Shown here: positions 15,301-36,300 of the stretch, piece after piece | How the letters are laid out: each line of letters starts with the position of its first letter | How positions within the stretch are numbered: position 1 is the first letter of the stretch | DNA from: Owenia fusiformis | Taxonomy: Eukaryota > Annelida > Polychaeta > Sabellida > Oweniidae | DNA: 64,000 nt | Assembly: GCA_903813345.2 (NCBI GenBank) | Contig: CAIIXF020000001.1 | Coordinates: forward strand, 20,229,915-20,293,914 | Reading direction: 5' to 3' | Made by a program: the position numbers and the translations under genes | The notes under the pieces: generated by a model | What the model was told of the DNA's origin: nothing | What the model saw: only the letters and a program-made list of their open reading frames with translations | Databases searched by the model: none

Positions 15301-18300
15301 AAATTAGAAAAATTGTTACGGTGTCTGGAGACCTTCAAAGAGGGTGGGGGCCAGAAGGAAAAAAATTCACATATTTTGCAACCCTCTTGATGAATTCCAA
15401 TTTACTCAGCTATAAATGAATGTTTTTGATTTATCTGTCCAGGATTATGTAAATATATATTTATTTGATCCATACATACAATTGATTTAAATACAGTTTA
15501 GAGGTAAGTAAAGCTTTGAAAGGACATTTCATGCTGAGTCTGGGTGACATTTTTATTCACTGGAGGTAGTAATCCTTTGAGTGTTTTCACATAGAGCATA
15601 ACAAGTCTCCACTCTAATAAGTGCTTCTTTAGTTACATAAATGTTATATTGTTGCATACAAAGAATAATTTTGATGGAGACTTATTATGCGCGATGTGAA
15701 TTTTAGAACTTTATAGAAAATTTTGCCTGCCATTTTTGTTGATTATTCAAAATGGCCAAATGCTATTCATGCTGCATATGTAGGAAGCAGGTAAATTCTC
15801 CTAGAAAACGGAGAAAGGTTACACAAGATTTAGCTTCACAAGTCAAGAATGCCAAAGTTGGACGGATAATATGCAATAACTGTCGTCTAGATTCAAAACG
15901 AACCAACCATAACTGTCATTTGGTATATAGGCTTCGCTAAGCACGAGGGTTACAAAGCCAAAGAAAAACCTCTGCAAGGGCATTATAAAATTTTAGATGC
16001 TAAAATACCTGAAACATCAAGTGGTTATATGTGCACAACATCTGAATCAGGTAGTTCAAGTGATGATGAGTAAAACTAATCAGAAAATGTTTCATTGTTA
16101 TTTCATTATAATCCAATGATGAAATGTGTTGAGATTTTAGATGTTTTTCACCTTTTAGGTGATCTCCAAGAAGTGATTATCTCCGTTATCTGTACTTACT
16201 GTTTCCTAGACATTATCAGAATGATTGATAATAAACTTAATAGTTGCTTTAAAATTATGTTGAATAATATCATTATGTTGAATTATAATATATACAGTGT
16301 GTGTGTTTAGTGTGTGGTTTTTAGCATACCCTATGTCGCTAACAGGAAGCAGGACATATTTCTCATAAAAAATAAACATTACTTTACGAGTCAAATTATG
16401 AAATGTACATTCTGAATTTAAATGAATTAAAAATAATAAAGTATTTTCATTATTTTAGGTACTTTTGTTCTCTTTCAGTGTGCGTGGGAAGGGCGGAATA
16501 TATTAATATAAATATCTCATTATTGGCAAATTGCCAATTTACTATATATTGTAATTCCAACCTCTATGAGACTAAATTCCTACAGATATTTGTGATATTT
16601 TAACCAAAAAGGTATATTTTTGTAGAAAATAATGAATTTTTTTAATTTGACCTTGACCTGGGGAATATGACCTTGACCTAAATTTTCATACATTTTTGAA
16701 ACACATATATCACATAGATTAATAAAATAAAGAGAAAACTTGAAAATCAGGTGGGGCTTAAAATGGCCTTGTTTACCCAACTCCTTTCAACATTTCCAGA
16801 TTAGGTTTTATCATATAGGTTGTTGGGGTCAGTGGCTTAATTTATTTAATTTTACAGCAGACATTAAACTATTGAGCATTCGAGTTCTATTTGGAAGGTC
16901 GAGAGTTGATTTTCAATTGAGCCGGAGTGACTTTTTAACATCAGCCCATAGTGTAGGATTTGATTCTATGTTTCAAAGAAATTGTTGAGGATTTTCCTCA
17001 TTTTATATGTACTGATTCCAGTTGTACTAACTAATTGTTTTAATTGTAAATATATTTGTTTCCATGCAAAAATAACATTTACATTAATACATGTAATATT
17101 AAAGTGGTTCAGTGCCTATTTTTGACCCTGAAATACCCCAACAGTTTCATAATACTCTTCAATATGCACAAACCTTCTATTTATATTAAAGCTTAAAAAT
17201 AATTCAAAAACTATGTGAGGATGTCTTATCAAACTGATAAGTACAGGTAAGATGCAGGTTTGTATTTTTGTCAGAGTAAGACACTCAACCATATTTTTGA
17301 TTGTTTTCAGAGCTTGAGCAATGAGATTGATGAGCTAGAGAGAGCAAAGCAAGAATATATCAAAAAGAATGAAGACCAGGTAGGCCACATTTCAATTTTC
17401 AGAATATATCAAGAAGAATGAAGATCAGGTAGGCCACATTTCAATTTTCAGAATATATCAAGAAGAATGAAGATCAGGTAGGCCACATTTCACTTTTCAG
17501 AATATATCAAGAGGAATGAAGACCAGGTAGGCCACATTTCAATTTTCAGAATATATCAAGAGGAATGAAAACCAGGTTAGTCATATTTCACTTTTCAGAA
17601 TATATAAAGAAGAATGAAGACCAGGTAGGCCACATTTCAATTTTCAGAATATATCAAGAAGAATGAAGACCAGGTAGGCCACATTTCAATTTTCAGGCCA
17701 ACCAAAATCATAGAATTATACATTATGCATAGATTTTTCATAACAATATTTAGATTGTGTTGGAACAATAGTTAAATTGGCTTTAATTGAGAAGATGCTA
17801 TTTATATGCAAGGGTCCTTTATAGTGAGATCACAGTGGCAAACACCCATGTATTAAGAATTCTTTATTCCCAAGTTGCACATGTTACATCTATCTTAACT
17901 GTAAAATCAATATAGAAATATATCAAGCTATAAAAATAATTCAATAGGATTAGACAAAAGTCATGGTATATATAGATAAATAATTTTAAGTTTTGGTACT
18001 GGGTTATTGAAATGAATATGATGCAATAAAAACATGTAGAAAATTACTTGTATACAGTATATATGTAAAAATCTAGCCATCCATATTATATCTGTGAATA
18101 TAATTCCACATTTGCACGGATAAACCTTGTAACCCTCAAATATTGCAAATAATCAACATAGGTGGTTTTTATACAAGGTGAAAGGAGGGTGTGGCATCAT
18201 GATTGCATTATAGAAAAGTAACAACTGTATCATGATCCACATAATCTGGTGTCTCAACCACAGCTGCTTTATGGTCTACATAACCTGTTGATTTCGCCAC

Positions 18301-21300
18301 ATCTGTGCTATGATCTACACAACCTTGTGTCAGAGCCACATCTTTTTTATGATCCATATAGCCAAGATTCAGAATCGCAGCATTATGGTCCACATAGCTT
18401 GGGGTTTGTGGCCCATTTTTGTCAATGTAATCTTGATTCTTTTTCACATTTTCATTATGATCAACATAGTCTGGGTGTTGGTCATCTGAAACAGATGACG
18501 TAATATTCTGACTGGTATGAGACTGAGTGTTTTGATTTGGTATTTCATTTTCAAAACAATCATGCTTGGCATCACTTTGAATTTTGGTATTTGGTAGTTC
18601 ATTCTCAACATAGCCTGTGTCAGGGTTAAGGGAAAATTCATGCTTGGCATCAATTTGAGTTTTGGTATTTGGTAATTCATTTTCAACATAGCCTGTGTCA
18701 GTGTTTAGGGAAAATTCATGCTTAGAATCATTTTGAGTTTTGGTATTTGGTAATTCATTTTCAACATAGCCTGTGTCAGCGTTTAGGGAAAATTCATGCT
18801 TAGAATCATTTTGAGTTTTGGTATTTGGTAATTCATTCTCAACACAGTCTGTGTCAGTATTAAGTAAAAAGTCATGCTTGGCATCACTTTGACTTCTGAT
18901 ATTTGGTAATAATTTATTTTCAACATAGCCTAGGTCAGGGTTCAAAGAAAATTCATGCTTGGCATCACTTTTGGTATTTTGTAATTCATTTTCAACATAG
19001 CCTGTGTCAGGTTTAAGAGAAAATTCATGCTTGGCATCACTTTGAGTTTTGGTATTTGGTAATTTTTTTTCAACATAGCCTGTGTCAGGTTTAAGAGAAA
19101 ATTCATGCTTGGCATCACTTTGAGTTTTGGTATTTGGTAGTTCATTTTCAACATAGCCTGTGTCAGGTTTAAGAGAAAATTCATGCTTGGCATCACTTTG
19201 AGTTTTGGTATTTGGTAATTCATTTTCAACATAGCCTGTGTCAGGTTTAAGAGAAAATTCATGCTTGGCATCACTTTGAGTTTTGGTATTTGGTAGTTCA
19301 TTTTCAACATAGCCTGTGCCAGGGTTAAGAGAAAATTCATGCTTGACATCACGTTGAGTTTTGGTATTTGGAAGTTCATTTACAACATAGCCTGTGTCTG
19401 GGTTAAGAGAAAATTCATGCTTGGCATCACTTTGAGTTTTGGTATTTGGTAGTTCATTTTCAACATAGCCCGTGTCAGTGTTAAGAGAAAATTCATGCTT
19501 GACATCACGTTGAGTTTTGGCATTTGGTAGTTCATTCTCAACATAGCCTGTGTCAGGGTTAAGAGAAAATTCATGCTTGACATCACGTTGAGTTTTCGTA
19601 TTTGGTAGTTCATTCTCAACATAGCCTGTGTCAGGGTTAAGAGAAAATTCATGCTTGGCATCACTTTGAGTTTTGCTATTTGGTAATTCATTTTCAACGT
19701 GACCTGTATCAGGGTTTATTGCTTGTTTAACATTCACTTTTGCTTTGGGCTTTGATCCATTTTTACTTGTTTCAGGGTGAATGGGTTTCCCAGTACAGGG
19801 TTGACGACATTCATTTGAACCTATTTGAATCACATAACCATTGTCATTCACTAGTCCAGGAAGGTTTGCCATCAATTCATGCTCAGGTTTAATCGCTGTA
19901 ATGGCTCTGCTATCATTGTGATTCAGTTTGTCATTGTCAATTGAAATGTCTGTCATTTCAGTTGATGCACCAAATTTAGAGTTTTCCTGAAAATACACCA
20001 ATACTGTTCTTTACAAAATATGACAATATATTTCCTATTTGATTCCTCTAAATATATTTGAAAACTGAGATATGCCTCACATTTGAAAAAGTTAACATTT
20101 TGTTATGTCACCACCACAAGAGTTTGTCATTCGGCATCTATAATAAATGGCAGTTGGTGATGACATTTTGCATTTTAATGCCTTGTTCTCGTTTATCATG
20201 TTCATGTGATTAATGAAGGTTTGAATAAAGAGAAATGTGTAAGTGTTTATGAGAGGGGAATAGCAGTTGATGTACTTGACACTTCCTATACATGAGGAAA
20301 ACAGTTCCTACCATTATGCTTTGATTGATATGATATTTTAAATGTTCTAACTCAGTTGATCACTCTCTTAGGTGTCACTGGGGGGCATATCCCAATCTTG
20401 ACCTCTAAGAAACAAGTGAAGAACAGATTCTTACCATTGGTCTGTGGTCAGTCTCTGGAATTGTCTGATAGTAATTCCCTATAATGACTGTTGGATACTC
20501 TAATGTGCCACTACATGTGGGATTTGTTGTAGGGGAGGTGAAATAAGGAACCTGAAAATGATTATGTTAAAATTATAAATTTTGGACAACGGTTATTCAA
20601 TGCTTTAAAACGTTCATTTTGAAAATCAGAACTGGAGAAAAAAATTCAGAACTTTTAAAGCCTAATTGTTGGAGCATTTTGAAAAATTTATAAATGAATA
20701 GGTGCCGACACTACTTACACTGATGAGTTGCTTGGTCTTCTTTTCCTGCTTTATCAAAAGTCTGAAATACATAGGAAACAAATGAAAAGTGCCATTAATC
20801 CGAACTAGTGCTCATATTTTATTTTATTGGGATCCACTGAAAGGTTGCATTTTTGATAAATTAATGTTTGATAATATTCACTCTATGTAGCATTTGCATC
20901 TCTTGTTCTGAAACTCCATTAGAAAAGCTCACTTAAGAGTCAATACTGTGTATAAGATTATGATTATACTTACGTAATAATGAAGTAAATTCCCAGACAT
21001 ACAAGACCAAAGAAGAAAAAGCCAACTATGACTATCAAAGCTGTCATCCAAGGCTTCAATCCTGGACCTGTAACCCAATTTAATCTAATAAGATCTCATA
21101 TGCATGAAAAACCATTTGTTGAATTTACTCTTTAAAAGATTTTGTATTATCTTGAATATGTACAGAGTACTCTTGTGTTATAGTTGATGTTATTTTTCCA
21201 TCATATGTACTGATTACAAATCTAGTTTATATCAATATAAATATTTCAAATAATGAGACTTCTCCTCCGATTATGTAAGGTATATATGAAATTTACTTTG

Positions 21301-24300
21301 CGGACATCATGATGCCATAAATTGTCAAATCTGACAAAATTAAAAGTTTGAATTTACCTGCCCTAACAAGGGTTGTGATGGTTGGTGTATGGGGACCTTT
21401 CCCATGTTTAGTGACCGCCTCCAATGTGAGACTGTAAAAAGCCCCACCCTGCAGGCCTTCTATCTTGTGTTGTGTTGCAGAGCTGGCTACAGTGATGTTT
21501 ACAGTTGTCTCTAATAGGGGGGTAAAATACAATATTCATATTCACTGGGAAACAAAATACGGATGTATCGGTCATTTGCCAATGATTATCATATACATGT
21601 AAAGTAAAGATGAGCACGTGCAAATGAAAAAGTAATAGCATATTTTAATGGGATCAATTATAAGAACATTATAAATGAAGCAATTTAAATGATTAAATAT
21701 GAAAGAATTAGCACCTACTTTCACAGTCTTGTTTTCTACAGTAGCGAATCATATAGTGCTGCACTATTCCATCATATTTATTGCATGGATAGTGGCTCCA
21801 GTGCACTTGTAAACTCTCTGCCTGTTTGTTCTCCACAATAACATTGAGGGGATGTTCTCGTGGTGGAGCTATTCAATAAAATAAACTTTCATTTCAATCA
21901 ATCCAAGAAAAAGAAGGATGGTCAAATATTCTTCATAAAATTTTTAAACTCTGAGGATAGGTGAAAGGGGGTCATTTGAACATAACTGTTTTTTGTGCAT
22001 TCCATCATTGGTAGAGATGTTGAGGTTGTTTATTGTTTTAAAATAAAATAATGAAACATATGTCTCATCTTGAGTATGACTAAGGGGTTAATGTTCTTGC
22101 AGAAGCTAAGGCTTCATAAAGCAGTTTTCAGTCCACTGGATTCCATTATAAAGTAAAATATTACATGTAACCAGCCTTATGTTCATCAGTATCATACAAG
22201 CATTCAGCCTACTGGATTCCATTATAAAGTAAAGTATTACATGTAACCAGCCTTACGTTCATCAATATCATATAAGCATTCAGCCCACTGGATTCCATTA
22301 TAAAGTAAAATACTACATGTAACCAGCCTTACGTTCATCAGTATCATACAAGCATTCACCCCACTGGATTCCATTATAAAGTTAAGTATTACATGTAACC
22401 AGCCTTACATTCATCAGTATCATACAAGCATTCACCCCACTGGATTCCATTATAAAGTTAAGTATTACATGTAACCAGCCTTACGTTCATCAGTATCATA
22501 CAAGCATTTGGCCCACTGGATTCCACTGCTTGTTTCAGCAAATTCTGTAGACAGACCAAATAGGTAATTTCCAGGTTTACCAAGTTCAAGAAGGCTGAAG
22601 TTCTGGGTATCACCAGCAAGAGTTTGCCATTGCAAATCACCCTTAAACAAAGAGAGGAATTACATTATTTCTAATATTTGAAATAATGGCCCCTTACTTT
22701 GTGATGAACACTACAGTAGTTGTGAAAAAAAATATTCACAAAAAATCTATTTATTGGCTCATTTTGTGCATGACTAGAGGCAATCTCGGTCTGTTACATG
22801 TCCAAACCCTCCAATATATGGGTTTCATTCAATTGTAGTTTTACAATGTAGTTTGAAAACATCATATTGGAATCTTTAAATAGAAAGAGGATGCATTAAA
22901 AGACAATTCATCAGTTTGTGTGAGCATTCATTATTAATGTTTGTAGATTACCTGACATTTGTCACCTGGAGCCCTGTGGCACCAGTAGGCTGTATGGTTA
23001 TATGGACTATTGGACCACTCAAATATGACCAGACTCTGATCAGGATGCTGCTCTCTCCTTACCATCCATGTCATAGGATGTTGTATACCTGTTAATTAAT
23101 CAGAGGAAGAATCAAACATTTGACTTGTACACCATGATTATGCAAAACTTATTAAAGTTTTCAAAATGATTATCACTTCACAATTCTCAATGGCACAACT
23201 TACGTTTATTTGCTTTGTGTACAACAATTCTTTGAATTGGTAATGAAGAATTAGTTCCCTTCTTTGTAGCACTTGTCACTTCAAATGTCATCTGAATATC
23301 TTGTGTTTTCCGGAAAGTTCCTGAGGTAGAAGTTGAATAAAGAGGTATCTCATTGTTAGGACTGACCATTCTTGGGGTATAAGTTACGACACCATTCCAA
23401 AGTCTTTTCATGATTTCTTGCCAGTATATTGTAACATATGACTGCTCTCCTTCTGTATATTCATAAAATGCTCCTGTTGTTAAAGTAGGAATTCCGCCTG
23501 GCACTGAAAAATATCAATATAAAGTCATCATAACTGGGTGCATTGTGGGTGCCACAGCCTCTACCATCGCTTGAAGAGAATAAACATCCTTCAGAAGAAT
23601 TATATGACAAGGATCCTTGATAAAATCATACTAACTGGGATGTTTTATCAGAAGAGTTTGTAAAGTTAATCATTTCCAAGTTTATTGTTTTTTGTCACCA
23701 TCACAAGTGGTGACATATTGTTATGGTTAGTCCCATGGTAAGGCCCATAGCTCATAATAAGCTAAAGCCCAACATACACCAATGGGGCACGATGGGATCT
23801 CCATATGCTTAACATTGCATGGGACCTTGTGGGCTTAATGTCCCATCTTGCCCCATCACATCCCAACCGTTTCCGGTCAGTATGACCTGTGATAACTTGA
23901 AGTTTCGAAGCACTCGATGTTATTCTGGATTTTAAACGACAAATCGATGGGATATTGTGTATTGAAGTTGGCGACAGAAACAGCAAGGTAATGCATATGA
24001 TATATGAGAATCCGAGTGCTATATAATGTAAACTAAATAGTCAAAATTATTAGTATAAAGTAGAAAGCTACCGGTAAGATTTGGATCAATTTTTTCATTC
24101 AATCCAGTAAGCATTTGTGATTTAACTGATACAGTTTTCAGACACTGCATGTACTCGGTTTTTCCCATATCATTATAACATTGGTAATATAGCCTAGCTT
24201 TCAATAGTGTAACACGGTGTTTTTGTTAGCGTTCAAGGAGCTTAGCGGGCACCCAAAGGGGAGATTGAAAAGTGTATTTGTAAATAGTCTATTGTATTTG

Positions 24301-27300
24301 TGTAAATGTATTTTTAGAGCATTAATTTGTATTTTGTACGAGTTAGTGTGGGGGGGGGGAGTTATTGTTGATGAACGTAGTACCCTTTGGGAACCCGCGT
24401 AACCTGTACATAGGAGTTACCTAAATTTGGAGATCCTGAAAGCTGTTCGTTACTTCTTATTTTCGTGTGACTGTATTGTTTATAAATGAATATCTTATTA
24501 TATGAGGAACTCAACAAATTACTAATATCTAGGCACTGTTCCTCATATGTTTTAGGAATTTCTGCCTTTCCAGGCAAACCAGTATGTTGGCAAAATGCAT
24601 ATATGTACTTGTAATCAGACTGATGTATTGGTTTGTGTTTGATTGTGTTTGTGTTTGTTTTGCTTGCTCATCCAAGTCACATGTATCTAATTGTACACGT
24701 ACATGTAGCTCATACTTTTCAAATGAACTTATCAAGAGTCCCTATAGCCCTGCAAGATCAGGAATAGGGTAATATGCCCTGTTGTACTGAATCATGGAGA
24801 AGAGCAGTTGGACTTTTTAATTGGCACCACATATTAAGCTTGGAAAACATATTGGAACCGGGCTCTCAATTGAAATGTGAATACTCTACTGAATTTTACC
24901 AGCTGGCTGTTATTTTAGTTGCATTTTTAACTCTCTTACTGATTGTAGGAGGGTTACATGTATCTAGTTGTAAATTGCAAATTCTGCCCTTTGTCTTGGT
25001 ATTTGCATTTCACATAGTCTACATTTGCATTATTTTATATACCATGTTGTCTATAATAAGATATTTGGTGAGTCTCTATTCACATACAATACCAATTATA
25101 CTTAATATTTCATTACTAACTGTGGTCATTTCATGTATACCTGGATCTACATTACTTATACATAATCCAAGCCACATGTATTACTTATTGCTCCTATTAT
25201 GTGGGGATATTGAAAGTAATCCAGGCCCATCAGATGACTTAAAAATTTTGTTCAGCAACATTAACAGTGTGAAGGCAGACTCACTAAATCGCTTAAATTT
25301 CCTGAAAAATTATGCAGCAAAGGAGGAGTTTCATATTATAGCCCTATGCGAATCGGGTAATATCACACCTGAAGATCTAAAATCAAAGAATTTTGACATA
25401 AGTAACTATGGCGCACCAAAATTTTGCTCAAACTCTGGCAGAGGCTTGATTTTATGGTCCCATGATTCTGTTGAAGTAAAAATTTTGGATCAATTTAGAT
25501 CAGCTGACCTGGTCAACTGCTGGATTGAAGTTAAACTAAACTTCAAAACATTTCTATATGGATTTTTTTACAGATCACCATCAATGAATGCTAATGATAC
25601 CAGGCGGTACTTCTCTGATTTCAAAGATAATATATCTAATGTGGCAATACATCCGAATAATGGGATATTTATTAATGGGGATTTTAACGCAAGAAATGAT
25701 GTATGGTATGAACATGATCATAACAATTTAGCTGGAACTGAATTATTTAGTACATTAACTGAACTTGATCTTTTGCAACTCGTCTCTGAACCAACCAGAG
25801 TCAGGCAGAACTCAAAGACATGCATTGATTTACTCATAACCAATTCCGAACATGCGATTTCTCACAGAGTTGATCCCCCGATTGGAAACTCTGACCATTG
25901 TGCAATTGTGTCAACCATAAGATCGAGGATCCCAAGAGAGCCATCTATTAAAAAGACCATGTGGAACTTCAGTAATGCTGATCTACAGCAACTTAATGCC
26001 AATATTACTAACTCTGATTGGAGTTTCATATTTGAAGACTCTGTCAATAGTGCAACCAATAGATTTATTGATAATTTTATGTCCATAATCAAGACAAGTA
26101 TTCCTTGCAAAATTTTTTCTACACGTTATGATGATCAACCATGGTTTAATAGCTCAATTAAAAAGGAAATCTATAAACGTAATAAACTTCATCATAAATT
26201 CAAAGCAACAGATAACATAGAATTTTATGAAAAATATGTGACCCAAAATAGAAAAGTAAATCTATTGATTAGCGAGGCCAAAGCAAACCACGAAATCAAA
26301 CTCAGAGAAAAGATTGATAATGTTTCAAAAAACTCTACAGAATATTGGACTTTAATCAAAACTCTTTTGGGTAAAAATCATACAAGCTCATTTCCTGTTC
26401 TTATTGATCCTTTGACAAATATCTCAGCATGCAGCAGCTTTGAAAAGGCTGAAGCTTTTCTAAAATATTTTGCAAGTAAAAACTGTGTTGATATTAATAA
26501 TACCAATGAACCACCACTTGAACTTAGAACAAATACAATATTGCCAGAAATCAGAACTTCTCCACAGGAGGTATTTGAGCTGTTCTCTAACCTAGATGTA
26601 AATAAATCCCATGGACCTGATGAGATAACCAACAAAATGATTAAACATAGCGCCTCTTCTCTTTGTCTTCCTGCCAGTCAATTGTTTAATAGAATTTTAG
26701 ATGAGAATATTTTCCCAGACATCTGGAAAGAAGGCACTGTCATCCCAATATTTAAGAAAGGGGACAGAGGCACAATAAGTAATTATAGACCAGTGACCCT
26801 CTTATGTACTTTTTCTAAAATATTGGAAAGGATCATCCATAAGAGATTACTTCTCCACTTGCTTGAAAATAATTTATTATACAAACTCCAAAGTGGCTTT
26901 TTACCCAAACATAATACAGTGAACCAACTTATTCATATTGTTCATGACCTCCATACTAACATCGATAATGGTAAAAATGTGCGTTCCATATTTCTTGATC
27001 TCACGTCAGCGTTTGACTTAGTTCCACACCATCTTCTTTTAAAAAACACTAAAAGCCTATGGATGTAATGACAATTTTATCTCCTTAATGACATCTTATC
27101 TTTCAAATAGGAGAATACAAGTACGGGTAAACAATAGTTTATCCAAATGGTCAAAAGATCGGGAACAGCGTAATGCCAATTTTGATCCTGGCCATAATGG
27201 TAGTCATAATTTTACCATAAATGCGGGTGTGCCGCAGGGGTCTGTTTTGGGACCCCTATTATTTCTAATTTATATTAACGACTTACCCGACAATCTCAAC

Positions 27301-30300
27301 TCAAAAACTTTTATTTTTGCTGACGACACTTCACTGTATGATGCGTATGATAAAAATGAAGTCTTTTTAAACATTAATCAGCCATTACAAGATGACCTTG
27401 ACACTTTACACCAATGGTCATTACTATGGAGAATGAAATTTAAAGCTCAAAAGAGTGCTGACATAACTTTCTCGGGACAACGCACCCAGAATATTAACCA
27501 ATCTCCCCTAACTTTGGGAGGTGAAGAGATACCCATTTGCACAACGCATAAACATCTTGGACTAGTCCTGGATTGTAAACTTAATTTCAATGCCCATATA
27601 GATCAATTAATTGGTAAAATAACCTCCCTAATTAGACCCTTGAAAGCTCTCTGTAAAAATTTACCAGGTAAGCACCTTGAAAAAATCTATAATGCCTATT
27701 TTTTACCACACTTTGACTATTGTGACATAATCTATAATAAAGCCTCCTTAGCAAAACTACAAGCTCTCGACAGACTGCATTACAAAGCAGCATGCCTGGT
27801 GTCTGGTGCTATCCATGGATCAAGTACAGACAAAGTTCTTTCCTCTATTAATTGGAAAACCCTCTCCTCGAGAAGAGATGAACATTTAAAAATTTTCTTA
27901 TTCAAAGCTCGCTTCAACTGTTTCCCACCCTTTATTTGTGACCTAGTTCGTACATATGAAATCACTCATACCAGAGACCTCAGATTCCAGCATGACTATA
28001 GAATTCCGAATCATTTGAGTTCATCTTGTGGTAAATCCACTATTTTTAATTCCATGAAGGTTTGGAATAAACTGCCAGCAGCGATTAGAGTTGGTCAACC
28101 CATTTCAAGGTTTAAAAGGTCAGTGAGAGAGTACACGAGCCTTGTCTCTGTATCAACTACTAAAATGACTAGGTGCATGCCAAGGCAAATAGAAATCAAA
28201 TTCAATAGACTAAGAGCTGGTCTACTTTTGAACAGTCACTTTTATTCTCATAATTTCCTGTCGGTAACAGATCCCAAATGTCAATGTGGTGAAAAATTTC
28301 AAACCACTGAACACTTTTTAATCAAGTGTCCACTGCTCCTTAATGAACGTGAAGTTCTTCTTGCAGGACTATCAGACTTGGACTGTTTACGAGATTTTGA
28401 AGCATACTCAATTCAAAGGAAAACACATTTTCTATTAAATGGAGATGAAAATTTGGACTTTGAAACAAATGAAAAACTGATTGAAATCACTGCTCACTAT
28501 ACATTTCAAGCTATACTAAGTCTGGGACAGGGTAATTTTTAACATTTGAGCTTGATACCACAACTTGGTACTGGGGAACAAGCAAACCAAACATCAACAA
28601 AAAAGAAAAAGCTTCTCTGAACATTTTGTGTATTTCTGAATATCAATTTTTATTTATCAAAATGTTTCAATTGCCGATAATGTTGTCCTGTCAACAATGG
28701 CAATTTGTAAAAATGTAACCGATTGATTTTTAGAAATAAATATGAAGTATGTAAAAAAAAAAAAAAAACATCCCATGAGGTCCCACATAGGCTCGGTGGG
28801 GCAAAATACCACTGAGTCCCATCAAGCCCATCGAGAATGAACATGTTCATTCTTTCCATGGGACATTGTGGAATTTTCGATCATATGACGTGTTGTGTGA
28901 AGCCCAACATACACCAATGGGGCACGGTGGGATTTGATGGGGACACCATGGGGCATGATAGGACTCTATGGGGCAAAGTCATCAAGGTACCATGGGATTT
29001 TGTGGGATTAGATGGGACAAGATGGGACTCATTGGCTAAATGAGATTTTGCCCCATTGGTATAGATTGGCTTAAGGAGATTCTCAGTGCCATATCTATGT
29101 CAAAACTTAATTGTTAATTGTTATGCCATGACATTAACATGCAAGTGATTTATAATACAAATATGAAAATGGATGTGTTTTAAGCCTCATGGCACAATTC
29201 CTTAGGTAGCAAAATTCTCTTGGGGGCATCTCTAATTTCTGTAAAACCAAAGATCTGAGAATTTATTTTCTTGATATTGATTTCTCACCATCCTCGGGTG
29301 TTTTTGTCATGACTTGAGATGAACTGCTGGGATAGCCCACTATGCTGTTGTTATAGATGGCTCTAACAATCACTTCTATTGTATAATTTGTGAAGGGCAC
29401 AAGACCTGTGATGTGAATGGCTTCTGCCTCTATTTGTAGTCTTAATGTCTGGAAGTAAATGAAATATATGGAGATGATTTAAAGTCCAGGTGTTTTTCTT
29501 TATATAGATGTCGCCTGTATTTTTGCATAATAAGGTATGGCTGGGGTTCACAAAAAGACAACAGCTCTCTAAACAAAATCTTATAAATGAAAAATCCAAT
29601 GCTTGGTCTATTATGTCTAATTTCAGTCATACATTTTAAGCAAACACTAACTTGAAAATCTTACATATTATTATGGTTACCTTATTTTTGTCCCATTTTG
29701 AAATGTAACTGATATCATAGACAACTTCTTTTCCAATTGGGGCAGTTCTCGTCCAGTTGACATAGATACATGTGCTGTTAATAGGTGTAGCCTTAGCAAT
29801 CACAGGATCTGGCTCAACTAAAATTAATATACAGTATATATGTGCATGTACAGTGAATAGCAGCTTGAAATCTCCGGAAATTTTTATCAAAGTATTTGAT
29901 ATTACATGTAATTGTTATCTAATTTTTTTTGTTTATGCCTGGTTTATATTGAACTTTTTTTAGCTCATGGGAATAAATTGCTACTCACTGAATGTTTGTG
30001 GATTTCCTATGAATGTCTGCGAATTTCCTTCAATTTTCAGTTTATTTGCTATGCTTACTTCAAACTTGATATATGTTGCATTTTGTGGGGTTTTTACTTT
30101 GCAAGCTGCTCTGTCAGTGTGTGATGTGGACCATGGACAGGCTGCTTGTCTATTGCAATTTTCGCTGAAATTGTGTGCTCATTCATTCATTTAAATCAAC
30201 AATGTGTAGAATGTAAACAAATGCATACATAAAAATCATGCTTTGGATATCACTGCTTAGGTCAATATGATTTGCTATGTTTCATCAGTGCCATTTTCTA

Positions 30301-33300
30301 GTTTTGTTTCCAATGCAAAAAACTTACCATTGATATTCAAACTTTTGATGGAAAATAATGGTTTGAATATGCTCCAGAGTTGGCCCTGGTGATACTTAAG
30401 TCTTCGCTTCTGATGAGTGTAAAAATATTAATAAAAATAGGTACAATACCATCCATTTGATGCTGTATATATAAGGTGAGAATGGAGTATATATGGTTCA
30501 TGATATTACTGAGTTTATTTGTGAGCATTCTAGCATTCTCACAGAAATTAATTTCTCTTATACAAGGTGACACCAAAAAAACAACTCACCACCATGTAAC
30601 AAATGTAGTTACATTTGTATGCAGACTAATGGGAAAGCTCCCAGGTTGCCAGCTGAATTCTAACAAGCCATTCCAATTTCTCATTTTACACTCAATATTG
30701 TGTGGCTTTTCAGGTAAATCTGTGAAAGAAATGGAATATGTACATTAATATTAGGATTCCTTGCTCTGTGTTCGACCAGATACTTGTTCAATTGAGGGAG
30801 CGTTTGAATTATTTATGGTCTTGGTATCTGTAGTGTTTTATGAACATATGAAGAATGGTGATTGCTAAAAGTGGTATGTACTATAATGTCTAAATTATAA
30901 AATGCTTACATCCTATAAGAGTCATTGTTTCTGCCAATATCTCATCCTCTTTAATGAGGCAGTTGTGAAAGCAATATCCTGTTGTGTTGAGTGTAGACAG
31001 GTGAAAGTGTGGCATATTAGGAACAGACAGGAAAGCTGTATGGTTATTGACCACTGTGACATATTCAGCTGGATATTCTATGGGGTTGCCATTATTGAAA
31101 CTATTTGATAGATACTGAAATAAAAATGATGCCTTGCACAAATGCCAAGAATTATATAGAACACAGGCACTGGCACAAATAGTTGTCCAAAGAAAATCTT
31201 ATTGTTGATTATTGAGATAAATATGGTTGCTCAGTATCAAAACTGAAAAGACTGTATGTGTGTCCTCTGGATAAGACCAAAAATATACTAGCAAGACTGA
31301 ACTGAATTGAACACTAATATCATATTACCCTGGTTTAAAATTCATATTGAAAATCAAGCATGAAATAACCTATATTTATATAAAACATCTAAAATAATGT
31401 GGAAATAAAAAAACATAAACATTACATATATATAAAACAACATAAAAAAACTTATTAAAAAAATGTAACATTATTTAAAGAAAAATTACTAGGACACCAT
31501 TCACTGATGAATCAAAGTAGATCAATCAAAAAGCAATAAATTTACATGTACATTTTGAAATTGTCCTAATCCTCACCTCAAAAGTTATATCATGTGCATT
31601 TTTGTTTCCCTGGTAACCATCTCCAATGATGCATGTTAGGTTCAAATTTCCCCCCACTGCAGCACAGGATTCACCTCCATCCATATGCTTACATAATGGA
31701 TCAGCAATGATTCCTATAATAGAAAGTATTCATTAAGATGATGGGTGATGTGGTGAGAGAAATGTTCTAAATGTTTATGAAGAGGGGGAGAAACCACAGG
31801 GTTCAAAGATGACGTACGTCTATAATGTAAATCTGTATTGATATGACCTATGGTCCTGATTGGTCCAAATAGACAAACAAAAATGGCGGATTCAAAATTT
31901 TCTAATAACGCTTTGAATAATATTATGTTAATTTCTGGGCGTGTTAAACAATATCATAGCCTGTTATTTCACATCATGATAAAGAAAGATGTAAGGAATA
32001 TGTATACACCCTATGCAGACAGAGCCTGTGGGAAATATTGGGTGCGGCGCAAATGAGCAGAGGGTGCGGAGCTAACGGTCATTTTTGAATTTAAAATTGG
32101 GATATTTCTGAAACTAAGCCGTTTTGGGACTTCAAATATACCAAGATATGTGTATTTGACACCAAATATCAATACAATTGTGAAAATAGTAGCGCAATTC
32201 ATTCTATAGCGATGCAGTGTGCCTTAAACCTTTCCCAGACCTATATATTTTGAAACTATCCTTTTAATACTGCGTCCCCAGCATTCATAAAAAATGGTGT
32301 TCAAGATACACTACCCATGCAAATTATTTTTGCATCTTGGAAGCCAGGCAGTATCTGTGTGATTTTATAAAAATTCGGAAATGTTCTTCAGATATGAGCC
32401 CCCTCTAAATATTGGGTGCGGAGGTACGTTTATGGAGCTGCTCCGCACCCAATATTTAGAGGGGGCTCATATCTGAAAAACATTTCCGAATTTTTATAAA
32501 ATCACACGGATACTGCCTGGCTTCCAAGATGCAAAAATAATTTGTATAGATAGTGTACCTTGAACACCATTTGTCACCACCAAAAGTGGTGACATATTGT
32601 TATGGTCTCCGTTTTTTGCGACGGCGTCCGGCGGTTTGTGGTTGGCGTCCGGCGTCTGTAACAATTTCTTACAACTTCCTATAACTTAACAAATACTGTT
32701 TAGACTGACTTCAATTTTTTTCTAAATCATCTACATGTTCTCAGAAGTTCAAATCTGACTTTAGATTTGACATTTGACCTTCAATGACCTTCTCAAGGTC
32801 AAAAAGGTCTTTTTTCAACTTGCTTCACATTGACTAAATTTTTTTCAAAATCATCTACATGTTCTCAGAAATTCAAATCTGACTTAAGATTTGACATTTG
32901 ACCTTCAAATCTGACTTTAGATTTGACATTTGACCTTCAATGACCTTCTCAAGGTCAAAAAAGGTCAAAAAGGTCTGTTTTCAACTTGCTTCAAATTGAC
33001 TAAATTTTTTTTTCAAAATCATCTAAGTGTTCTCAGAAATTCAAATCTGAGTTAAGATTTGACTTAAGATTTGACATTTGACCTTCAATGACCTTCTCAA
33101 GGTCAAAAAAGGTCAAAAATGTCTGTTTTCAACTTGCTTCAAATTGACTAAATTTTTTTTTCAAAATCATCTACGTGTTCTCAGAAATTCAAATCTGACT
33201 TAAGATTTGACATTTGACCTTCAATGACCTTCTCAAGGTCAAAAAAGGTCAAAAAGGTCTGTTTTCAACTTGCTTCAAATTGACTAAAAAAAATTTTCAA

Positions 33301-36300
33301 AATCATCTACGTGTTCTCAGAAATTCAAATCTGACTTTAGATTTGACTTAAGATTTGACATTTGACCTTCAATGACCTTCTCAAAGTCAAAAAAGGTCAA
33401 AAAGGTCTTTTTTCAACTTGCTTCAAATTGACTAAATTTTTTTTTCAAAATCATCTACATGTTCTCAGAAATTCAAATCTGACTGTAGATTTGACATTTG
33501 ACCTTCAATGACCTTCAATGACCTTCTCAAGGTCAAAAAAGGTCAAAAAGGTCTGTTTTCAACTTGCTTCAAATTGACTAAATTTTTTTTTCAAAATCAT
33601 CTACGTGTTCTCAGAAATTCAAATCTGACTTAAGATTTGACTTAAGATTTGACATTTGACCTTCAATGACCTTCTCAAGGTCAAAAAAGGTCAAAAAGGT
33701 CTGTTTTCAACTTGCTTCAAATTGACTAAAAAAAATTTTCAAAATCATCTACGTGTTCTCAGAAATTCAAATCTGACTTTAGATTTGACTTAAGATTTGA
33801 CATTTGACCTTCAATGACCTTCTCAAAGTCAAAAAAGGTCAAAAATGTCTTTTTTCAACTTGCTTCAAATTGACTAAATTTTTTTTTCAAAATCATCTAC
33901 ATGTTCTCAGAAATTCAAATCTGACTTTAGATTTGACATTTGACATTCAATGACCTTCTCAATGTCAAAAAAGGTCAAAAAGATATTTTTTCATCTTGCT
34001 TCAAATTGACTAAATTTTTTTTCAAAATCATCTACATGTTCTCAGAAATTCAATAATGTCTTTAGATTTGACATTTGACCTTCAATGACCTTGTCAAGGT
34101 CAAAAAAGGTCAAAAAGGTCTTTTTTCAACTTGCTTCAAATTGACTAATTTTTTTTTTCAAAATCATCTACATGTTCTCAGAAATTCAAATCTGACTTTA
34201 GATTTGACATTTGACCTTCAATGACCTTCTCAATGTCAAAAAAGGTCAAAAAGGTATTTTTTCATCTTGCTTCAAATTGACTAAATTTTTTTTCAAAATC
34301 ATCTACATGTTCTCAGAAATTCAAATATGACTTTAGATTTGACATTTGACCTTCAATGACCTTGTCAAGGTCAAAAAAGGTCAAAAAGGTCTTTTTTCAA
34401 CTTGCTTCAAATTGACTAATTTTTTTTTTCAAAATCATCTACATGTTCTCAGAAATTCAAATCTGACTTTAGATTTGACATTTGACCTTCAATGACCTTC
34501 TCAAGGTCAAAAAAGGTCAAAAAGGTCTGTTTTCAACTTGCTTCAAATTGACCAAATTTTTTTTTCAAAATCATCTTCATCTTTTCAGAAGTTCAAATTT
34601 GACTTTACAAGTTCTCAGAAATTCAAATCTGACTTAAGTTTGAACTCATAATATTGTGAGCAACTAGGTGGTGACATTTTGTCATGTTAATGCCTTGTTT
34701 ATGAATGCTGGGGACTCAGTATTAAAAGGATAGTTTCAAAATATATAGGTCTGGGAAAGGTTTAAGGCACACTGCGTCGCTATAGAATGAATTGCGCTAC
34801 TATTTTCACAATTGTATTGATATTTGGTGTCAAATACACATATCTTGGTATATTTGAAGTCCCAAAACGGCTTAGTTTCAGAAATATCCCAAATTTAAAT
34901 TCAAAAATGACCATTAGCTCCGCACCCTCCGCTCATTTGCTCCGCACCCAATATTTCCCACAGGCTCTGTCTGCATAGGGTGGTATACATCGATTAAAAA
35001 CATCACAACCACGTGTTATATTCAAAAACTAACAGGTGAGAATTGGCGCAAATGAAGATGGTATGCAAGCGACGTAATATGTCTGTCATCACTAGAGCTC
35101 TGGGGGTTTCCCTCCTCTTATGTTTATGTATGTTGAGATAAATTCATAAACTACTGAGTTGTTATTAGCAAATTATACATGTTTATGTTGGTCTGTTCAC
35201 TTTCAGTTAATGATTTATTTTGTAGAGTTTAAGGGCCGCCTGAATCAATTATCAATTAAATACCGATCTCTGCTTATATGTTTGATTTATTATCCTTTTT
35301 TCTGGAAATCTGAATCTCATTAGTAGATTAAATATACATCGTCAATTAATGATCATCTAAAGTGGATACACTACACAGTAAAACCTGTGTAAGTGGAACA
35401 TCCTTTGGACCACCATTATTGTATACTTCAAGTTAAAAGATGTTATAAACTTGTGGGTTCCACTTGTGGGTTGCTCTATTTACAGACAGGTGTTTCACTA
35501 AACAGTTTTTACTGTATTTAGTAAGTTAAAAAACAGACAGCGCCAGGATATATCATGTGAGAATGAGTCTACTCACTTCCCTTTGTTAGGCCCTGCACAA
35601 CTTCAAGAATCATTTGTAGAATAAAGACTTTCTGCATCAGGGTCATATTGATAATGATATAAGACCAATCTCAATTTAAGTTGAATCCAAGCATTATCTG
35701 GAAAGTAGATACATATTTTAGTATATTGGCCTCGGGAAATATCATATGGACACTCGGCCTTCACCCTCGGTCAATATCATATTTTCCTTGGTCAATATCA
35801 TCTTAAAAATAAAATTCATATTCCATCCCTCTCATTAAATAACCTCTATTTATCTAATACACCTCACATATCAAATACATACCTGCACATATATGGGTAT
35901 GTATAAGATATGTGTGGGTATGTATTATATACCCACACATATCAAATACATAACCATTCATGTCTTAACCACACATCTTACATCTTTACACATCATCACA
36001 TCTACTTTAATCTTGACAGTTATACATTATTCAGCAGAGATATAATTTATGGTTTCACAGTGCTCTTTTACTCCCCACATAGCCATACGATTTTCATTAC
36101 AGAGCAACAGTGATTATCGATTCATATCTGTTCATTTTAGACCGTTGTATGAAGCACAGGTGAACAGTAATGTGATATAACATTGCTTTTCCCCATTATA
36201 AAGACATAAGGAAAAAGAATCAATACAGAAAATGTATCCTTTTTCGAATAATGTTTATTCCATATGATCATTCATCTATATTTGATTTATCATATCATTA

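Follow-up and report, generated by a model that had tools for sequence, protein, structure and literature searches.

The window analysed here is a 64,000-nucleotide stretch of the 498-Mb Owenia fusiformis assembly GCA_903813345.2 (contig CAIIXF020000001.1, denoted C1; C1:20229915-20293914), which was also used for the genome searches described below. It carries a receptor gene on the minus strand, of which 15 exons were located from 31713 to 18208 (Table 1), and the last exon encodes most of a cytoplasmic tail with two series of repeated tyrosine motifs. The GT/AG sites and phases of the exons match, which gave a 1290-residue chain without internal stop. A protein search recovered P0001, a public Owenia fusiformis "unnamed protein product" whose residues 25-1314 equal this chain exactly; its first 24 residues, a signal peptide, are from an upstream exon outside the located set. 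The frame of the last exon contains the final stop only, and the other two minus-strand frames contain 19 and 112 stops. A single open reading frame (ORF) through this exon, whose positions were given by an earlier sequence-only reading of the window, is hence confirmed. The array was also considered as non-coding, which was rejected because the receptor frame alone is open among the three and equals the annotated protein.

Table 1. Located exons of the receptor gene and motif series of its last exon (window positions)
Feature	Positions	Strand	Remark
First exon located	31577..31713	-	D1 part 1, Ig-like by position
D1 part 2 exon	30910..31114	-	
D2 start exon	30590..30719	-	Cytokine-receptor homology region
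D2 end exon	29989..30164	-	
D3 start exon	29681..29817	-	
D3 end exon	29289..29448	-	GYPSSSS at expected WSXWS place
D4 exon	23204..23503	-	FN3-like, by alignment
D5 start exon	22952..23088	-	
D5 end exon	22485..22641	-	Overlaps 76-bp tandem repeat
D6 start exon	21719..21868	-	fn3
D6 end exon	21358..21510	-	
Transmembrane exon	20974..21067	-	Helix = P0001 645-669
Juxtamembrane exon	20719..20761	-	43 bp, LLIKQEKKTKQLIS; size and phase same in paralogue C6
Box-1-like exon	20435..20551	-	VPYFTSPTTNP, 4 Tyr
Last exon	18208..19986	-	592 codons + stop, most of cytoplasmic tail, 20 Tyr
Single YVIQ	19825..19836	-	YxxQ type; kept as GYVIQ in paralogue C6
TGYVEN array	18553..19719	-	15 tandem 26-residue units, Tyr in 13/15
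Distal series	18232..18468	-	7 Y-[VIM]-D-[HK] motifs, spacing 11-13 residues, Tyr in 6/7

All 20 tyrosines of the 592-residue last-exon product lie inside motifs, one in the YVIQ, 13 in the 26-residue units and six in the distal series. The sequence-only reading had described 15 repeats with a single YVIQ ahead of them and distal motifs retained in six of seven, and this arrangement was recovered as described. Its further statement that 13 of the 15 repeats keep TGYVEN holds for the tyrosine itself, while the exact hexamer is present in only 10 and a tyrosine with Asn at +3 in 12. Two of the units carry in-frame indels (24 and 27 residues). The residue at +1 of the 20 tyrosines is Val at 18 sites, Ile at one and Met at one; Gly precedes 16 of them; and +3 is occupied by Asn (12), His (5), Lys (2) or Gln (1). 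The YVIQ is the one YxxQ site of the tail, the other 19 last-exon sites being of other types. The array scored 1776 in Tandem Repeats Finder, and [YC][VIM]D[HK] occurs seven times in the distal 90 residues against a mean of 0.03 and a maximum of 2 over 20,000 shuffles. A chance origin of the motifs is excluded by these two results.

The ectodomain and transmembrane segment (659 residues) matched IL-12Rβ2 as the best of 52 PDB sequences (E 3e-11), for which query residues 88-603 aligned with D2-D6 in order. Membrane-proximal FN3 domains are present, as evaluated with Pfam fn3 (E 2e-19, two stretches, the best at 518-608), and D4-D5 were assigned from the IL-12Rβ2 alignment only. When D2-D3 were searched on their own, no cytokine receptor was obtained below E 1 (GCSFR 1.5, IL-12Rβ2 3.1); contactin-2 reached 2e-4 and LAR 1e-3. 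Class I receptors are described in the accessible part of the source as carrying a CX9-10CXWX26-32CX10-15C signature in the first module of the cytokine-receptor homology domain (PMC1963337). The strict pattern is missing in the Owenia receptor and fits once Phe is allowed for the second Cys. WSXWS is also missing from the receptor, with GYPSSSSQ found near the D3 end instead. Because of this Cys-to-Phe exchange and the absence of WSXWS, strict class I membership was not assigned, and we use the term "gp130/IL-12Rβ2-related" for this divergent relative. The Box-1-like VPYFTSPTTNP soon after the membrane was recognized by resemblance alone, without a scoring model. The cytoplasmic tail comprises 645 residues with 24 tyrosines, and its composition falls in the disordered range. 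The tail ORF used as a protein query gave no match at E 0.001 among 7994 candidates scored, under length limits that excluded the full receptor. Its Pfam matches to SapB_1, Tax, Adeno_E3 and three others did not reach the cut-offs and were interpreted as noise from low complexity. Two queries (ectodomain plus proximal tail, and D5 to the transmembrane segment) each gave only the receptor itself and one FN3 protein, and hence no orthologue from a different species. The cytokine-receptor identity proposed earlier is supported, as a relatedness, by the P0001 gene model and the IL-12Rβ2 similarity. Judged from its sequence, the window gene encodes a gp130/IL-12Rβ2-related receptor with a long tyrosine-motif tail.

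Paralogues of this receptor were found in the same genome. Of the 19 matches to the D5-D6-transmembrane query at E 0.1, five were to the window gene, four to C6:3.68M, three to C1:29.2M, two to C4:16.76M and two to C4:8.80M; three further weak matches (E 0.01-0.09) were left aside. Tails were read from the 10 kb downstream of the D6 region at the four clear loci, which share the D5-D6 exons and all have a visible transmembrane exon. At C6, the closest paralogue, the transmembrane, 43-bp juxtamembrane and box exons are joined in phases identical to those of the window gene, and GYVIQ occurs in aligned context. Its tail contains 29 units of 13 residues with the consensus GYVDHNAAVAQNP, in which tyrosine is retained in 24. 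Y[VITF]D[HN], of the YIDH/YVDH type, occurs 11 times in the C1:29.2M tail, and some of these sites form part of a six-unit DHP run (four of six with tyrosine). The two C4 genes are without an array; 2 of 8 and 4 of 13 of their last-exon tyrosines are in Y[VIL]xH, where shuffles predict 0.03 and 0.06 (P 0.0004 for the first, 0 of 20,000 for the second). This pattern was chosen after the tails had been read. Since some of these six sites look like shared positions, they are not six independent events. These array-less paralogues keep Y and H, and not D, as in GYVSH, GYLPH and GYIPH. Both C4 tails also end nearly alike in RADSGYTE[FS], perhaps another conserved tyrosine site. When the YVDH array alone was used as a genome query at E 0.1, 15 matches were obtained, nine in C6, four in C1:29.2M and two in the window gene; all 34 candidates were scored, and the counts are lower bounds. 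The confinement of these matches to three receptor genes indicates that such arrays go with this receptor family.

Constraint was evaluated from the proportions of synonymous (pS) and nonsynonymous (pN) differences between units. For the window distal series, the motif codons gave pS 0.80 and pN 0.15 (ratio 0.18) and the spacers a ratio of 0.78, but this comparison is biased because the units were defined by the motif. In C6 the units were picked by the whole 13-residue consensus. Here the Y-V-D-H block exhibited a pN/pS of 0.285, the lowest of 13 four-column blocks, and the rest of the unit 0.688, for 29 of the 33 picked units, the other four being off-array and excluded; inclusion of all 33 gave 0.398 and 0.77. 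Stops were avoided in the C6 array (0 versus 2.3 expected, P 0.01). One could suppose that the conserved unit is a structural or metal-binding element made of Asp-His pairs, or a trafficking signal, rather than a phosphosite, given that 27 of the 29 C6 units retain Asp and 24 retain His, as compared with 24 for Tyr. We regard this as very improbable, because the 26-residue units hold Y-V-E-N without His at +3, the array-less paralogues retain Y and H rather than D, and the last exon contains neither of the tail's two YxxPhi matches. Spacer identity was 0.62 within C6, 0.19 within the window series, 0.18 within C1:29.2M and 0.14-0.33 between genes. The high value within C6 indicates a recent expansion of this array on its own. 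The window and C1 series may instead be old and go back in part to a shared ancestor. Taken together with the 26-residue array, the units point to amplification of different elements in the window gene (26 residues) and in the C6 gene (13 residues).

The 26-residue array was then compared unit by unit, for which two gap codons were placed in unit 10, the extra codon of unit 11 was dropped and the two final codons of unit 15 were masked. Only 1-2 bases separate units 7, 8 and 10, and similarity drops with distance along the array (permutation P 0.014), as local turnover, which makes neighbouring units more alike, would produce. The near-identity of central units and recent turnover expected by the sequence-only reading are hence supported. 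Among the units 44 distinct changes were counted, of which 14 were synonymous, 30 nonsynonymous and none a stop. A whole-genome search with the 26-residue query placed all 11 matches at E 0.001 in the window exon. The array is young, coding and under weak detectable constraint. The 26-residue unit is also modestly supported as an old 13-residue dimer whose second Tyr became Asp, since DAKH/DVKH stand in register with YVDH (P 0.013 and 0.007). As for dN/dS across units, which the sequence-only reading had proposed as a check, YVDH was more constrained than its spacers, while evidence of selection on the TGYVEN array was weak; conservation of the tyrosines among paralogues, the quality whose absence in orthologues that reading had named as a refutation, spoke for YVDH and YVIQ and partly against the TGYVEN tyrosines.

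These properties lead to the alternative that the array is a coding minisatellite that grew within a disordered tail through slippage or unequal exchange, such that its tyrosines are passengers and only the YVDH series, the YVIQ and the membrane-proximal tyrosines signal. It agrees with a young, homogenised and weakly constrained array, with the loss of Tyr from two of the 15 units and from both C6 counterparts, with the disordered-range composition of the tail, and with two other minisatellites that overlap exon ends nearby. However, no stop arises from the 44 changes against 1.8 expected (P 0.10), and the same changes produce 4 and 3 stops in the other two frames. Furthermore, all 13 tyrosines have G at -1 and V at +1, a core shared with YVDH-type sites and with the STAT's own site described below, and a related unit was amplified in C6. 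We therefore consider a pure minisatellite rather unlikely. The 13 TGYVEN tyrosines may be either a functional addition or passengers. The case for them is the weaker one, as this array is younger, less constrained and lacks the tyrosine in the counterparts of the closest paralogue, and the strongest functional evidence concerns the YVDH rather than the TGYVEN array.

Components of a JAK/STAT pathway were found in the same genome. A JAK-type FERM exon at C3:12811612-12811821 gave JAK2 as its best PDB match (E 1e-5), which bears on the report of an incomplete Owenia JAK in a 2026 survey, whose available text describes the JAK of this species as without FERM or kinase domain. A STAT gene was recognized by STAT_bind exons and, approximately 2.5 kb downstream, an SH2-end exon with STAT5A as its best match (E 8e-11). 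The own site of this STAT5-type protein, NEGYVGL, aligns with DGYVKP of STAT5A, and G-Y-V is common to it and to most tail sites; this three-residue likeness is only a lead. At C1:53979425-53979732 the initial part of the STAT_bind profile is matched twice in adjacent positions, once with an internal stop, and this pair is perhaps a duplicated, alternative STAT exon. The view of the gene as a JAK/STAT-type receptor is thus supported by the FERM exon, the STAT5-type gene and the one YxxQ.

A different partner for the arrays was also considered, namely an inhibitory or adaptor SH2 protein (SOCS-like, SHP-like or other) in place of a STAT, by which the tail would act as a brake, a sink or a scaffold like that of p130Cas. 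Such a role is compatible with +3 residues that are mostly N or H, with the YVIQ as the only site that fits YxxQ, and with the example of p130Cas itself, whose 15 reiterated tyrosine sites are described as able to act as a scaffold (PMC3983058). It is nevertheless judged improbable, as the G-Y-V core equals that of the Owenia STAT's own site and the patterns for ITIM, ITAM, Crk, Grb2, p85 and NPxY are without a match in the last exon. In a scan with SH2, PTB, ITIM and ITAM patterns, no last-exon site other than the YVIQ fitted; the single ITIM match and both YxxPhi matches precede this exon.

We hence lean, with moderate confidence, to a tail that serves as a multivalent phosphotyrosine docking platform of a JAK/STAT-type pathway and has grown through two or more separate amplifications. 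A ligand would bring the receptors together, receptor-bound JAK would phosphorylate the tyrosines of the tail, and the Y-[VIL]-x-[H/N/Q] sites, mostly preceded by Gly, would be bound by SH2 proteins, of which the STAT5-type STAT is the most likely. The family motif would be Y-[VIL]-x-H, and tandem duplication would have amplified different units in each paralogue, the 26-residue unit in the window gene, the 13-residue unit in C6 and perhaps YIDH in C1:29.2M. We infer the phosphorylation of the tail, the SH2/STAT binding and the signalling benefit of many copies.

Besides the two limits given above with the window series and the C4 pattern, several observations weigh against this docking platform. 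P0001 is annotated on the same contig, and it therefore supports the gene model without being independent proof of expression. After IL-12Rβ2, the next PDB matches of the ectodomain were contactin-4 (6e-11) and RPTP-delta (1e-10), which were reached through the D6 FN3 alone. At 17 of the 20 last-exon sites the +3 residue is N or H, not Q. In the 26-residue array the synonymous excess (14 versus 10.5 expected, P 0.09) is weak, as is the stop avoidance; the tyrosine lies outside the eight invariant columns of the unit, and its conservation is not above average. The idea that Tyr is specially conserved within this array was rejected on these column counts. The two VEN-type units of C6 have Thr and Cys in place of Tyr, and the whole C6 unit exhibits no synonymous excess (19 versus 20.2 expected, P 0.82). 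The frame of C6, as assembled, changes between the proximal part and the YVDH array (C6:3668001-3678000, reverse strand 2397-2439); the frames before and after were read separately and left unmended, and the change may be an assembly error, a true frameshift or an intron. Separate amplification of all three YVDH series was likewise considered and was not borne out by the spacer identities of the window and C1 series.

Other features of the window surround or interrupt the receptor gene. A 76-bp tandem repeat of 5.2 copies (22127-22525) runs into the 3' end of the receptor D5 exon, including its donor site, as a second minisatellite that lies at a coding boundary in this gene. A 49-bp repeat of seven copies (17352-17696) lies in an apparent neighbouring coiled-coil gene, and each copy, as judged by eye, has on the plus strand a GT donor-like site and a coding stretch resembling an exon end. 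A receptor intron holds a non-long-terminal-repeat-type retroelement (24768-28542, plus strand) with endonuclease and reverse transcriptase domains in two overlapping ORFs. Inverted repeat arms of 288 nt, 98% complementary and 2400 nt apart, flank a 136-148-bp satellite array at 32007-34982; a dispersed mobile element is likely here, as similar sequences occur in ORFs of L013 and L025 (C6:3668001-3678000).

The receptor can be compared with known systems, which are cited here from the accessible portions of the sources. In gp130, five distal tyrosine motifs serve as SH2 sites (PMC13203501). The Owenia receptor resembles the tall class I receptors of the gp130/IL-12Rβ2 type in its D2-D6, colinear with IL-12Rβ2, its transmembrane helix, its long tail and its one YxxQ. 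It differs from them by the absence of WSXWS, by a Phe at one signature Cys, and by a last exon with 20 tyrosines, 13 in a tandem array and six in a second series, with N or H at +3 in 17. Domeless of Drosophila, likewise an invertebrate receptor, has a cytokine-binding module and three FN3 motifs, with YXXQ as the consensus STAT-binding site (PMC2914635); the portion consulted mentions no array, and the likeness is one of description. The substrate domain of p130Cas recruits SH2 proteins by 15 reiterated YxxP motifs in a disordered chain (PMC3983058). It is, however, a cytoplasmic scaffold of YxxP pseudo-repeats whose spacing is conserved in placental mammals, whereas near-identical young units are found in the Owenia receptor tails. 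CagA of Helicobacter pylori has a disordered EPIYA tail with a variable number of tyrosine-phosphorylation segments and binds SH2 proteins (PMC4957108); it is an injected bacterial protein, whereas the Owenia array is in the animal's own receptor, and it serves for comparison only. A literature search on annelid, Owenia, polychaete and tandem-repeat receptor tails found no description of tandem arrays in a cytokine-receptor tail among the matches listed, which included few subscription papers. Within that coverage, the statement of the sequence-only reading that no receptor tail of this kind is known to have been described stands.

The comparison of these genes suggests a signalling tail in which the docking sites vary in number over evolutionary time. 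A bolder reading, held tentatively and at less than even confidence, is that a family of invertebrate gp130-like receptors has made its STAT-docking motif expandable as a tandem array, with different units amplified among paralogues (TGYVEN of 26 residues, GYVDH of 13 and perhaps GYIDH of about 13), so that gain, threshold or duration of the signal would evolve by repeat turnover and would probably vary between individuals, with STATs that read Y-[VIL]-x-[H/N] and not YxxQ. Owenia fusiformis offers a paralogue series within one animal, in which two genes have no array, while in the others YVDH-type units number 7, 11 or 29 and VEN-type units 2 or 15. This series could show whether the number of docking sites sets JAK/STAT output and whether repeat instability evolves signal strength, and the Owenia tails could show whether docking of annelid STATs follows a code different from YxxQ.

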